A stretch of DNA of 40,669 nucleotides, taken from NCBI GenBank assembly GCA_021807265.1, contig JAKAPH010000004.1:1-40669 (forward strand). The letters run 5' to 3'. The translations under genes were made by a program, and so were the position numbers. Origin of the DNA: Actinomycetes bacterium. GTDB taxonomy: Bacteria; Actinomycetota; Acidimicrobiia; Acidimicrobiales; RAAP-2. Below the pieces are notes generated by a model that ran no database searches, had not been told where the DNA came from, and saw only the letters and a program-made list of their open reading frames with translations. Below, in pieces: positions 8,095 through 15,305 of this stretch (the first letter of the stretch is position 1; each line of letters begins with the position of its first letter).

Positions 8095-9357
8095 GTGAGT
8101 TCGTTGTTGGTCAAGCCCGCGGGTCCGTTGTCGGGCGACGTCCAGGCCTTCGGCGCGAAGAACGCGGTCTTGAAGGAGATGGCGGCGTGCCTGCTCGCGA
8201 GCGGCGTGCACCACCTGACCAACGTGCCCGCGATCAGCGACGTCGCCGTCATGACCGAGCTGCTGGAGGCGGTGGGCTGCACCGTCGTGACCGGCGAGCA
8301 CCAGCTGACCATCACCGTTCCCGACGCGCGCGACCTGCACCCCATCGCGCCGGCCCATCTCTTTGAGGCCATGCGGGCCTCCATCGTCGTGCTGGGCCCG
8401 CTGCTCGCGCGCTGCGGCGAGGCCCACATGGCCCTGCCGGGGGGCGACGACTTCGGACTGCGCCCGATCAACTTCCACACCGACGGCCTCTCGGCGATGG
8501 GCGCCGACTTCCACAACGACCGCACCTCGATCCACGCCACGACGACCCGGCCCCGGCTGCGCGCGACGCGCATCACGCTCGAGTACCCGAGCCACACGGC
8601 GACCGACAACCTACTGATGGCCTGTGTGCTGGCCGAGGGCCGGTCGGTCATCGACAACGCCGCGCGCGAGCCCGAGGTCGAGGACCTCGGCCACCAGCTC
8701 ATCGCGATGGGCGCGCGCATCGAGGGACTGGGCACGTCGCGGCTCACCATCGACGGCGTCGAGTCACTGCGCGCCGCCGACCACGAGGTCATCCCCGACC
8801 GTGTCGTCGCGGCGACCTACCTCGCGGCCGGGTTGATCACCGGCGGCGCGGTGCGCGTCATCGACGCGCGCGCCGATCACATGGAGATGCTCCTGCACAA
8901 GATCGAGGCGATGGGCGGCGTCGTGGACGTGACCGGGCCGGGCGTCGTCGTTCGTGGTCCGAGCCGGCTGCGGGGCTGTGACGTCTCGACCTTGCCCTAC
9001 CCCGGGGTGGCGACCGACTACAAGCCACTCATCACCACGATGCTCGCCGTCGCCGACGGGGTCTCGGTGGTGACCGAGAACCTCTTCGCGGGGCGCTTTC
9101 GCTACGTCGACGAACTGGTACGGCTGGGCTCGAACATCACCACCGACGGCCACCACGCGATGATCCGCGGCGTCGACCACCTGGTCGGCACGACGGTGCG
9201 CGGCGCCGACATCCGCGCCGCCGCGGCCCTCGTGCTCGCGGGACTGGTCGCCGACGGCGCCACGACCGTCGAGGGGTTCGAGCACATCGAGCGCGGCTAC
9301 GACGACTTCGTGGGGCGACTCACCAGCCTCGGCGCGCGGATCGACCGAATCCGATGA
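8095..9357 (+). CDS. murA: UDP-N-acetylglucosamine 1-carboxyvinyltransferase
   Basis: This 420-residue protein transfers enolpyruvate from PEP to UDP-GlcNAc, the first committed step of peptidoglycan synthesis. It opens with LLVKPAGPLSGDVQAFGAKNAVLKEMAA, including the conserved KN pair at the substrate site. The inside-out alpha/beta barrel repeats are visible. The loop that usually carries the fosfomycin-target Cys (residues about 95-115) reads RCGEAHMALPGGDDFGLRPI, an atypical form; GlcNAc-transferase paralogues with similar changes exist. GTG at 8095 was chosen by family alignment and a leaderless -10. It overlaps meaB by ATGA. Confidence 0.9.
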   Translation: MSSLLVKPAGPLSGDVQAFGAKNAVLKEMAACLLASGVHHLTNVPAISDVAVMTELLEAVGCTVVTGEHQLTITVPDARDLHPIAPAHLFEAMRASIVVLGPLLARCGEAHMALPGGDDFGLRPINFHTDGLSAMGADFHNDRTSIHATTTRPRLRATRITLEYPSHTATDNLLMACVLAEGRSVIDNAAREPEVEDLGHQLIAMGARIEGLGTSRLTIDGVESLRAADHEVIPDRVVAATYLAAGLITGGAVRVIDARADHMEMLLHKIEAMGGVVDVTGPGVVVRGPSRLRGCDVSTLPYPGVATDYKPLITTMLAVADGVSVVTENLFAGRFRYVDELVRLGSNITTDGHHAMIRGVDHLVGTTVRGADIRAAAALVLAGLVADGATTVEGFEHIERGYDDFVGRLTSLGARIDRIR

Positions 9358-10316
9358 TCGCGCGCGACCCCGACGAGCTGATCGCCGAGGCGGCCCGCGG
9401 GTCGCGCACGGCCCTGGCGCGACTCATCACCTACGTGGAGTCCGGCGGTTCGAGACAGCGCGCCACCGTCTCGCGCGCCTACGCGACGCCCGCCCCCTAC
9501 GTGGTCGGGCTCACGGGTCCGCCCGGCGCCGGCAAGTCCACGCTCACCGACCAGCTGATCAAGACCGCGCTCGAGAGCGGCTCCTTTGACGGGGCGCAGC
9601 CCTTCGACCAGGTTGGCGTGCTCTGCGTGGACCCGAGCTCGCCCTTCACGGGCGGCGCCATCCTCGGCGACCGGATCCGCATGCAGGACCACGCGACCAA
9701 CGAGCACGTCTTCATCCGCTCGATGGCCACGCGCGGCCACCTCGGCGGTCTCTCGCTCGCGGTGCCCGACGCCATCCGGGTCCTCGGCGCGGCGGGCTTC
9801 TCGGTCGTCTTCGTTGAGACCGTCGGCGTCGGGCAGATGGAGGTCGATATCGCCTCGGCGGCCGACACCACCATCGTGGTGACCAACCCGGGCTGGGGTG
9901 ACTCGATGCAGGCCAATAAGGCCGGGCTCCTCGAGGTCGCCGACATCTTCGTCATCAACAAGGCCGACCGCGCGGGACTGCGCGAGACCCGCCGGGACCT
10001 CGAGCAGATGCTCGAGCTCGGCACCGCCAAAGAGCCCCGACCGCCCATCCTCGAGACGGTGGCGAGCAGCGGTGCGGGCGCCGGCGAACTCTGGCGGGCG
10101 ATCATCGAGCACCGCCGGCTCGTGACGGGCACCCAGCAGGACCACCACCGCGCGGCCCAGGCTCGCGCCGAGCTCGACCGTGTGCTCTCGGTGATGCTGC
10201 GCGCGCGAATCGGCGAGCTCGCCGAGGGCGCGGCCTACACCGAGCAGGTCGCCGCGCTCATCGACGGGCGGACCGATCCCTACCGCGCGGCCGAAGCGTT
10301 ACTCTCAGAGACGTGA
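9354..10316 (+). CDS. meaB: MeaB/ArgK-type G-protein chaperone
   Basis: This 320-residue P-loop GTPase belongs to the family that loads and protects the B12 cofactor of methylmalonyl-CoA mutase and related mutases. It has GPPGAGKST at 55-63 (Walker A), VDPSSPFTGGAILGDRIRM, FVETVGVGQMEVDI (switch region) and the guanine-specificity motif NKAD. The C-terminal helical arm used for dimerisation is present. It starts in the ATGA overlap with murA and is itself overlapped by the next gene, so the three appear to be one operon. No mutase subunit lies in the window. Confidence 0.9.
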   Translation: MIARDPDELIAEAARGSRTALARLITYVESGGSRQRATVSRAYATPAPYVVGLTGPPGAGKSTLTDQLIKTALESGSFDGAQPFDQVGVLCVDPSSPFTGGAILGDRIRMQDHATNEHVFIRSMATRGHLGGLSLAVPDAIRVLGAAGFSVVFVETVGVGQMEVDIASAADTTIVVTNPGWGDSMQANKAGLLEVADIFVINKADRAGLRETRRDLEQMLELGTAKEPRPPILETVASSGAGAGELWRAIIEHRRLVTGTQQDHHRAAQARAELDRVLSVMLRARIGELAEGAAYTEQVAALIDGRTDPYRAAEALLSET

Positions 10317-10771: not shown

Positions 10772-12028
10772 CTACAGGAAGGTCGCGCGCCCCACCATGC
10801 CGGCCGCGACCGTGGCGTTGGTGACCTCGTCGATCAGCACGAAGCTCCCGGTGACCCGGTTGTCGCGGTAGTCGTCGACCACGAGCGGGTCGGCGGTCGC
10901 GAGCTGGACGAGCCCGATGTCGTTCGTGCGCAACTCGTCGCCGGGGTCGACCGACAGCGTCGCGACGTCCACGACGCCGTCGAGGCTCACGATGCGCGCG
11001 GGCGTGACCCGGGTCGTGTGCTTCAGGCGCAGCCGCGAGCCCGTGGTGAGCGGCCGCTCGCCGAACCAGCAGACGGTCGCGGCGATCTCGCGCGTGACGT
11101 GGGGCAGTGGCGCGCCGGCGAGCAGGTCGCCGCGCCCGGCGTCGGTCTCGTCGGCGAGTGCCACGTCGATCGAGAGCCCGACCGCCCCGTCAACGTCGGC
11201 CCCGCTGTGCAGGGTGTTGAGCGCGGTGATCGTCGTCTCGATGCCCGCGGGCAGCAGGGTCACGACGTCACCCTCGTGCAGGGCCTCGCCGTTCACCATG
11301 CCGGCGTAGGTGCGCCCGCCGCCGGGCTGGCGCAGGACCCACTGGATCGGTAGGCGCGCGCCGTTGGTCGCATTGGACCAGGCGCCGGCGTCGCTCGTCT
11401 CGAGGGCCTCGAGCACGGTGGGTCCGGCGTACCACGGGGTGTGGTCCGAGGCGTCCACGACGTTGTCGCCGAGCAGGGCCGAGGTGGGCACGCAGGTGAT
11501 CGCGTCAAAGCCCAGCTCGCCGGCCACGGTCTCGACCTCGTCGACGACGCTCTGGAAGGCGGTCGGTGACCAGTGCACCGCGTCCATCTTGTTGACCGCG
11601 ACCACCAGCCCGCGCACGCCGAGCAGCGCGGCGATGCACAGGTGGCGCCGGGTCTGCTCCTTGAGCCCGTGCGCGACGTCGACCACCACGAGCGCTAGGT
11701 CGGCCGTTGAGGCGCCGGTGGCCATGTTGCGGGTGTACTGCACGTGGCCCGGGCAGTCGGCGATGATGAACTTTCGCTGGGGGGTCGACGCGTAGCGGTA
11801 GGCGACGTCGATGGTGATGCCCTGCTCGCGCTCGGCGCGCAGGCCGTCGGTCACGAAGCTCAGGTCGAGGTCGCCGACGCCGCGGCGCTCGGAGGCGTTG
11901 ACCACGGCGTCGAGTTGGTCGTCGAAGAGCTGGCGGGTGTCCACGAGCAGCCGGCCGATGAGCGTCGACTTGCCGTCGTCGACGGACCCGACGGTCGCGA
12001 GTCGCAAGATGTCTGTCGTGAGCTCCAC
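10772..12028 (-). CDS. cysN: Sulfate adenylyltransferase subunit 1 (GTPase)
   Basis: This 418-residue EF-Tu-like GTPase drives ATP sulfurylase: together with CysD it makes adenosine 5'-phosphosulfate from ATP and sulfate. The G motifs are clear: GSVDDGKSTLIGRLL near the N-terminus, EREQGITIDVAYRY, DCPGH and NKMD. Two beta-barrel domains follow. It ends without the APS-kinase (CysC) domain found in many CysNC fusions, which fits direct reduction of APS by the neighbouring cysH. GTG at 12028 follows the cysD stop immediately, so the two form one operon. Confidence 0.95.
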   Translation of the reverse strand: MELTTDILRLATVGSVDDGKSTLIGRLLVDTRQLFDDQLDAVVNASERRGVGDLDLSFVTDGLRAEREQGITIDVAYRYASTPQRKFIIADCPGHVQYTRNMATGASTADLALVVVDVAHGLKEQTRRHLCIAALLGVRGLVVAVNKMDAVHWSPTAFQSVVDEVETVAGELGFDAITCVPTSALLGDNVVDASDHTPWYAGPTVLEALETSDAGAWSNATNGARLPIQWVLRQPGGGRTYAGMVNGEALHEGDVVTLLPAGIETTITALNTLHSGADVDGAVGLSIDVALADETDAGRGDLLAGAPLPHVTREIAATVCWFGERPLTTGSRLRLKHTTRVTPARIVSLDGVVDVATLSVDPGDELRTNDIGLVQLATADPLVVDDYRDNRVTGSFVLIDEVTNATVAAGMVGRATFL

Positions 12029-12952
12029 TTAGAAGTAACCCTCACGCTTGCGGTCTTCCATGGCGGTCTCGGAGAAGCGGTCGTCGGCGCGCGTCGCGCC
12101 GCGCTCGGAGACGTTCGCGGTCGCCACCTCGCGCACGATCGCCTCGACGGTCACCGCGTCGGACTCGACCGCGCCGGTGCAGGTCGCATCGCCGACGGTG
12201 CGGTAGCGCACGAGGCGCCGCTCGACGCGCTCGCCGGGCCGGGGCTCGATGAACTCGTTCACGGCGAGCCACATGGCGTCGCGGCGCACCACGTCGCGCT
12301 CGTGGGCGAAGTAGATCGGCGGCAGGGCGACGTTCTCTCGTTCGATGTACTGCCAGATGTCCAGCTCGGTCCAGTCCGAGAGCGGGAAGGCCCGCAGGTG
12401 CTCGCCGGCGTTCACCCGGCCCTGGTAGAGCTGCCACAGTTCGGGGCGCTGCTGGCGGGGGTCCCACTGGCCGAACGCGTCGCGAAAGGAAAGGATCCGT
12501 TCCTTGGCGCGGGCCTTGTCCTCGTCGCGTCGGGCGCCACCGAAGGCGGCGTCAAAGCCGTGCTCGACGATTGCGTCGAGCAGCGCCACCGTCTGGAGCC
12601 GGTTGCGGGCGCCGTGGGGGCCGGGGTCGGCCACCCGGCCGCGGTCGATCGCCTCCTGCACGCTCGCAATGACGAGGCGCGCGTTGAGGTTGGCGACGGT
12701 CTGGTCCCGGAACGCGAGGACTTCGGGGAAGTTCTGGCCGGTGTCGACGTGCATCACCGGAAAGGGGAGGCGGCCCGGCGCGAAGGCCTTGACCGCTAGG
12801 TGCAACAGCACCGCCGAGTCCTTGCCGCCCGAGAAGAGCAGTACGGGTCGCTCGCATTCGGCGGCCACCTCGCGCAGAATGTAGACGGCGTGGGACTCGA
12901 GGAGCGAGAGATGGTCAGTGGTCGTCTGGGGGCGCAAAGATGTCAAGGTCAT
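12029..12952 (-). CDS. cysD: Sulfate adenylyltransferase subunit 2
   Basis: This 307-residue catalytic subunit of ATP sulfurylase has the PP-loop SGGKDSAVLLHLA near residue 42, FPVMHVDTGQNFPEV and the conserved C-terminal tail FSETAMEDRKREGYF. Other family landmarks are GARRDEDKARAKERILSFR and LSDWTELDIWQYI. The frame is open further upstream through the divergent cysH gene, but the ATG at 12952 is the natural start: it is preceded by CGAGGAA and matches the family N-terminus. It is first in the cysDN operon, divergent from cysH. Confidence 0.96.
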   Translation of the reverse strand: MTLTSLRPQTTTDHLSLLESHAVYILREVAAECERPVLLFSGGKDSAVLLHLAVKAFAPGRLPFPVMHVDTGQNFPEVLAFRDQTVANLNARLVIASVQEAIDRGRVADPGPHGARNRLQTVALLDAIVEHGFDAAFGGARRDEDKARAKERILSFRDAFGQWDPRQQRPELWQLYQGRVNAGEHLRAFPLSDWTELDIWQYIERENVALPPIYFAHERDVVRRDAMWLAVNEFIEPRPGERVERRLVRYRTVGDATCTGAVESDAVTVEAIVREVATANVSERGATRADDRFSETAMEDRKREGYF

Positions 12953-13015: not shown

Positions 13016-13684
13016 ATGATGATACCCAGTCAGCCCACGATTCAGGACCTGGCGGCGCTCAATGCGCGCTTCGAGACGGCCGATCCGAGCGAGGTGTTGG
13101 GGTGGGCGTTTGACGAGTTGGGCGACGTCGTGGTGGCGTGCTCCTTCGAGGACCTGGTGCTCGTGCACCTCGTGCACGAGCGTTGGCCCGAGGCCGAATT
13201 CGTCTTCCTGGACACCGGCGGCCACTTCCCCGAGACCCTCGAGTTCGTCGAGCGGATCGAGCGCGACTGGTCGCTGCGCATCACGCGCCCCGAGCTGAGC
13301 GCCGAGGCGGCCAGCTGGCCCTGTGGCACCGCGCAGTGCTGCGCGCAGCGAAAGGTCGAGCCCCTGACGCGTGTGCTCGCCGGGCGCGCCGGCTGGGTGA
13401 CGGCCTTGAAGCGCGTGGACGCGCCGACGCGCGCCGCGACGCCCATCGTCTCGATGGACGAGAAGTTCGGCCTCGTCAAGGTCAACCCGCTCGTCACCTG
13501 GACCGACGACGACATCGCGTACTACCTCGACCGGCACGGGCTCGCGTCGCATCCGCTGTGGGCTCAGGGCTACGCCTCGATCGGCTGCGCCGCGGTGACG
13601 AGCAAGCCCCTCGACCCGAGCGACCGTCGCAGCGGGCGCTGGGCCGGCGGCGACAAAGTCGAATGTGGACTACACGAGGTATAA
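13016..13684 (+). CDS. cysH: Assimilatory APS-reductase-type CysH, altered cluster motif
   Basis: This 222-residue PP-loop reductase should reduce adenylylsulfate to sulfite with thioredoxin. It shows FVFLDTGGHFPETLEF, WVTALKRVDAPTRAAT and the catalytic tail KVECGLH. The CC pair of the [4Fe-4S] site is present (TAQCCAQRKVEPL). The second pair, normally CxxC in GCAPCT, reads IGCAAVTS, so the fourth cysteine is replaced by valine. Lack of a CysC kinase domain nearby also favours APS over PAPS as substrate. ATG at 13016 is followed by a second in-frame ATG. Confidence 0.9.
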   Translation: MMIPSQPTIQDLAALNARFETADPSEVLGWAFDELGDVVVACSFEDLVLVHLVHERWPEAEFVFLDTGGHFPETLEFVERIERDWSLRITRPELSAEAASWPCGTAQCCAQRKVEPLTRVLAGRAGWVTALKRVDAPTRAATPIVSMDEKFGLVKVNPLVTWTDDDIAYYLDRHGLASHPLWAQGYASIGCAAVTSKPLDPSDRRSGRWAGGDKVECGLHEV

Positions 13685-14939: not shown

Positions 14940-15305
14940 TCATTCGAGACGAAGCCGATGGGCAATTACGGCAACGTCCAGTTGTGAAGTCGCGACGTCG
15001 TAAACGAGTTGGAATGCTTCGTCATCGGTGAGTGGTGGTGATATCCCGTTGAGATCGCAGAATACGACCGTGCTCAGCCACGCCAGTCGCTTGTTGCCGT
15101 CCACGAGGGCGTGGTTCTTGGCCATGGATTGCAAAAGCGCAGCCGCCTTGAGACTGATCGTTGCGTAGGCGTCCTCGCCGAAAGCACTGGATCGGGGCCT
15201 GTTTACCGCCGAATCCAACAGACCAATATCACGAACTGGACCGATCCCAAGGGTTCGAACCATCATGATGATGTCCTCGAGTTCGAGGTATTCGACTTCG
15301 CTCAT
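14940..15305 (-). CDS. Doc/Fic-family toxin (death-on-curing type)
   Basis: This 121-residue protein has the Fic/Doc fold. The active-site motif is HALVDGNKR at residues 65-73, close to HxFx(D/E)GNKR of the family, with Leu in place of Phe. In the best-known Doc (phage P1) this motif phosphorylates EF-Tu; the target here is not shown. The length matches Doc toxins (about 125). It overlaps the antitoxin gene by ATGA, the antitoxin coming first, as usual for toxin-antitoxin operons. Confidence 0.88.
   Translation of the reverse strand: MSEVEYLELEDIIMMVRTLGIGPVRDIGLLDSAVNRPRSSAFGEDAYATISLKAAALLQSMAKNHALVDGNKRLAWLSTVVFCDLNGISPPLTDDEAFQLVYDVATSQLDVAVIAHRLRLE

Follow-up and report, generated by a model that had tools for sequence, protein, structure and literature searches.

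The four cluster ligands of APS reductases have been described as invariant, and in known bacterial enzymes APS reduction accompanies a [4Fe-4S] cluster (PMC2275785). Cluster-free APS reduction also exists, in the APR-B clade (Physcomitrella, 4BWV), which adjoins the PAPS reductases (E. coli CysH, 1SUR/2O8V; V. vulnificus, 6VPU) and is without the Cys pairs (PMC2275785). Within the same PP-loop superfamily, the tRNA thiolases NcsA and TtuA hold a [4Fe-4S] cluster with three cysteines (PMC10067955). The CysH encoded in the window (the whole 40,669-nucleotide stretch analysed here) shares with the [4Fe-4S] APS reductases of M. tuberculosis (7LHR/7LHS) and P. aeruginosa (2GOY) the fold, the CC pair, the first Cys of CxxC and the RKV, GRW and ECGLH motifs, and it is ∼40% identical to the M. 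tuberculosis enzyme in a structural alignment; unlike both, it has Val in place of the second Cys of CxxC and an extra Cys at −5, five residues before CC. With APR-B and the PAPS reductases it shares the fold and an ECGLH-type catalytic motif; however, those enzymes are without cluster cysteines, whereas the window CysH keeps three, with a fourth nearby. NcsA and TtuA are related to it in fold only distantly (TtuA E about 1e-4) and carry out non-redox sulfur transfer, and unlike them CysH has a fourth Cys available. As argued below, the protein is probably a thioredoxin-type assimilatory APS reductase in which a four-Cys [4Fe-4S] site would be kept, its fourth ligand having moved from the C-terminal CxxC to just before CC.

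Sequences with CC and CxxC and no Cys at −5 are here called canonical, those with Cys at −5 and a non-Cys residue at the fourth position swapped, and those with both the −5 Cys and the fourth Cys five-Cys. The gene and the residues under discussion are the following:

13016 to 13684, forward strand: cysH, predicted assimilatory APS (sulfonucleotide) reductase of the swapped-ligand type, 222 residues.
13322 to 13324, forward strand: Cys103 (TGT), the proposed relocated fourth cluster ligand, in CGTAQCC, 5 residues N-terminal of CC; Cys in 97/97 swapped and 0/110 canonical sequences.
13337 to 13342, forward strand: Cys108-Cys109 (CC), ligands 1 and 2 of the canonical cluster site, unchanged across both swapped and canonical sequences.
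13586 to 13588, forward strand: Cys191, canonical cluster ligand 3 and first Cys of CxxC, invariant.
13595 to 13597, forward strand: Val194 (GTG), at the site of canonical cluster ligand 4, as read from the sequence.
13664 to 13666, forward strand: Cys217 of ECGLH, the catalytic cysteine, in a conserved motif.

The cysH reading frame matched PF01507 (PAPS_reduct domain) at E 3e-35, with 122 bits against a curated cut-off of 22.5, and the NCBIfam phosphoadenylyl-sulfate reductase model at 204 bits, above its cut-off of 154. The chain reads, in order, ...WPCGTAQCCAQRKVEPL...GYASIGCAAVTSKP...SGRWAGGDKVECGLHEV, giving the pattern CC...CAAV...ECGLH, with the catalytic ECG(L/I)H motif at the C-terminus present as ECGLH (13661-13675). 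Its six cysteines are at 42, 103, 108, 109, 191, and 217; alignment to M. tuberculosis APS reductase 7LHR (..GCAPCTAKP..) equates CC with 108/109, the first Cys of CxxC with 191, and the catalytic Cys with 217, and places the fourth canonical cluster Cys opposite Val194. The protein thus has the first of the two Cys pairs CC and CxxC, the second being CAAV, which confirms the original prediction that the fourth cluster Cys was missing next to an intact CC. The GTG codon had been placed at 13598-13600, which is in fact ACG (Thr195). An AlphaFold model of CysH (mean pLDDT 83.6, pTM 0.82; moderate confidence in the CxxC region, pLDDT about 73) matched 7LHS/7LHR and 2GOY with E values between 1e-16 and 1e-19, the best structural match being the M. 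tuberculosis enzyme (E 1.7e-19).

Both ways in which the missing Cys might have been spurious were found not to hold. A base error at the GTG codon is excluded in practice, because GTG is present at the DNA level in 9/9 close-relative loci checked and is more than one base from TGT/TGC; across the lineage the residue is V, M or T. Nor do the relatives have Cys at this site: every sampled relative in the genus and family is without it. Among homologues, loss of the Cys is fixed in the lineage, and the residue itself varies between V, M and T in the genus, in the family and in 10 other families of the same order. A pseudogene was ruled out, as the cysH reading frame is intact, adjoins cysDN and is kept across the genus. 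No second, compensating CysH was found in the window’s genome (82% complete), where PF01507 recovered CysD and the window CysH only.

To place the exchange among relatives, CysH proteins were sampled at genus, order, class and phylum level together with eight named plasmid-borne genes, and 218 distinct sequences were scored. Canonical sequences made up 110/218 and swapped sequences 97/218, with V (40), Q (23), T (22) or M (12) as the fourth residue; eight of the 218 were five-Cys, all from Rubrobacteraceae (family f89). The remaining three were one sequence with neither Cys (L058), one disrupted sequence, probably by a frameshift (L150), and the cluster-free E. coli enzyme, which has YN and D at the cluster-Cys positions. 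The fourth position was V or M in the genus (T in one) and mostly T in order-level relatives with the trait, and the −5 motif was mostly CGTxxCC in genus and order relatives. V, Q, M, and T are poor Fe-S ligands, whereas the −5 position is always Cys in the swapped set. C108, C109, C191, K113, W209, R205/R208, and ECG were invariant in all 97 swapped sequences, and the seven cluster-type plasmid CysH from other organisms were all canonical. A search of 397 genomes of the phylum for the DNA pattern of −5 Cys, CC, and RK(V/I)xP gave matches in families f1, f33, and f89, and the few others look like chance. No CysH relative was found on viral contigs, and phages yielded no close CysH relative, the best being ∼32% identical.

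The single sequence with neither Cys, from one MAG of family f30 (G089:C79:30350-31200), has CC and CAPT and no −5 Cys, leaving three cluster cysteines only; on this one sequence, loss of the fourth Cys is possible without the swap. An APS kinase gene lies ∼6 kb from it on the same contig. Alone among the sequences scored, it is compatible with a [4Fe-4S] cluster bound by three cysteines and left with one open iron, as found in NcsA and TtuA of the PP-loop superfamily; applied to the window CysH, this reading would make C103 no ligand. Such a cluster is known in PP-loop enzymes (NcsA; PMC10067955), and TtuA-type folds are among the distant structural matches of the CysH model, but this reading leaves unexplained the −5 Cys in all other cluster-type sequences lacking Cys194, in two lineages, and is improbable. 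The original prediction had counted three of the four cluster cysteines, overlooking Cys103; this count is probably wrong, as that Cys is present in every cluster-type sequence lacking the fourth Cys except the one from the MAG. Of the three options it had offered, ligation by another residue is now favoured, and an absent or three-Cys-ligated cluster is, given C103, probably wrong. C103, C108, C109, and C191 are all present in the window CysH and co-vary as would be expected of four cluster-holding cysteines, judged from sequence alone.

A reductase with no cluster, resembling moss APR-B or the PAPS reductases, with the leftover cysteines as relics or structural residues, would have a precedent, in that cluster-free APS reduction exists (PMC2275785), and the presence of an APS kinase in the window’s genome was counted in its favour. 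However, the loss of all cluster cysteines that marks cluster-free PAPS reductases and APR-B is not seen here: CC and C191 are kept, and they are invariant in 97 diverse swapped CysH, whereas all four cysteines are lost in the cluster-free E. coli enzyme. Had the cluster gone, CC and C191 would be expected to have eroded, as happened in the E. coli enzyme, so that a cluster is probably retained. The Physcomitrella parallel drawn earlier thus refers to a real cluster-free enzyme (PMC2275785) and is a poor fit to this one. Additionally, the sequence and fold of CysH group with cluster-bearing APS reductases, and most relatives are without APS kinase, both of which argue against a cluster-free or PAPS-reducing enzyme; this explanation is very unlikely. 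Both the cluster-free and the three-Cys enzyme are less likely than a relocated fourth ligand.

The substrate was considered from the neighbourhood of cysH and from the distribution of APS kinase. The neighbouring genes, and two others in the window, are the following:

12029 to 12952, reverse strand: cysD, small subunit of sulfate adenylyltransferase (NCBIfam TIGR02039, 440 bits, cut-off 396.6), divergent from cysH with 63 bp between.
10772 to 12028, reverse strand: cysN, sulfate adenylyltransferase large subunit (TIGR02034, 473 bits, cut-off 336; PF00009).
9354 to 10316, forward strand: MeaB-type GTPase (PF03308, E 2.6e-77).
14940 to 15305, reverse strand: a short, stand-alone protein of the Fic/DOC family (PF02661, E 8.5e-13), perhaps the toxin in a toxin-antitoxin pair.

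CysD and CysN adjoin cysH in almost every genus locus whose length allows this to be seen, and the window CysN is without a fused APS-kinase domain, its match to the CysNC model ending at position 433 of 632. Of the 61 genus genomes, 14 gave a full-strength match to APS kinase and 47 gave none at E<1e-20; the three weak hits tested were all gluconokinases. Eleven genomes that are at least 95% complete and have a swapped CysH that could be read are among those free of APS kinase (G005, G013, G019, G025, G028, G037, G044, G045, G047, G051, and G054). Because most genus genomes are without APS kinase, the species concerned most likely reduce APS directly. The window’s own genome carries an APS kinase (G000:C94:5132-5581, reverse strand) on a separate contig, away from cysDNH; the window CysH most likely uses APS, which for this species follows by kinship only, PAPS also being possible given its own kinase. 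The patchy occurrence of the kinase in the genus suggests that it has a role other than sulfate assimilation.

The swapped CysH fell into two groups, one comprising 11 families of the window’s order (f1, f9, f21, f22, f31, f33, f39, and f44-f47) and the other f89. The tree was built from 130 representative CysH with the five trait columns left out, and was a quick tree with many weak forks. On it, evolution of the −5 Cys and the fourth Cys was dependent rather than independent (likelihood ratio 32.2, 4 df, p 1.7e-6), and the fitted rate of fourth-Cys loss was ∼18-fold higher with the −5 Cys (1.9 versus 0.1), these fitted rates being rough. Only 2 of the pairs on starred branches were independent (two or three contrasts at most), too few for a sign test. 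Forcing all swapped CysH into one clade cost 101.7 log-likelihood units (AU p 0.016), which disfavours a single origin of the swap and indicates at least two. The flanking motifs also differ by lineage, with CGTxxCC in the window’s order and C-x-P-D/N-x-CC in f89, which argues for convergence.

Family f89 is called Rubrobacteraceae because one of its genomes (G469) was identified as Rubrobacter radiotolerans by 100% plasmid identity. Its CysH comprised 23 swapped, eight five-Cys, and four canonical sequences, the five-Cys forms (−5 Cys with intact CxxC) being L179, L201, L207, L208, L221, L222, L224, and L226, of which L208 is that of Rubrobacter radiotolerans (G469). Canonical and swapped paralogues are co-resident in three f89 genomes (L178/L213/L214 in G733, L211/L212 in G656, and L215/L216 in G701). 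The C-terminal Cys is absent in Rubrobacteraceae only where the −5 Cys is present. This pattern, together with the dependence of −5 Cys gain and fourth-Cys loss on the tree, speaks against a redox role of C103’s own, as a resolving Cys for C217 or an oxidative-stress switch, with loss of Cys194 as a separate adaptation; an extra Cys near the active site can play such a role, but here we regard it as highly doubtful.

With a relocated ligand, the cluster would be held by C103, C108, C109, and C191, Cys103 in a CxxxxCC arrangement standing in place of the last canonical Cys. The exchange would have begun with the gain of a Cys at −5, followed by a redundant five-Cys stage, retained in Rubrobacter, and then by loss of the C-terminal Cys, by that stage no longer needed, leaving that site free to turn to V, M, T, or Q. 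Catalysis would otherwise be standard for the family, in which APS supplied by CysDN binds beside the cluster, the catalytic Cys (Cys217 here) attacks the sulfur, and thioredoxin releases sulfite. In an engineered ferredoxin, Azotobacter FdI C20A, an adjacent Cys reportedly takes over as cluster ligand; that protein is a laboratory mutant, whereas the exchange in CysH would be natural and lineage-wide. No description of the swap was found in the open literature searched, which takes in few subscription journals.

Taken as a whole, the locus is probably a case of natural [4Fe-4S] ligand relocation in a core metabolic enzyme, convergent in two actinobacterial lineages by way of five-Cys intermediates still present in cultured Rubrobacter. 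Relocation would free the C-terminal loop close to the active site and might alter the stability or potential of the cluster. What the cluster does in APS reductases has been asked for a long time, and for this question the swapped and five-Cys enzymes are ready test pieces, both of a dispensable ligand and of stepwise rebuilding of a cluster site without loss of function. Under a motif rule by which CC plus CxxC denotes an APS reductase, entire lineages would be wrongly annotated as cluster-free.
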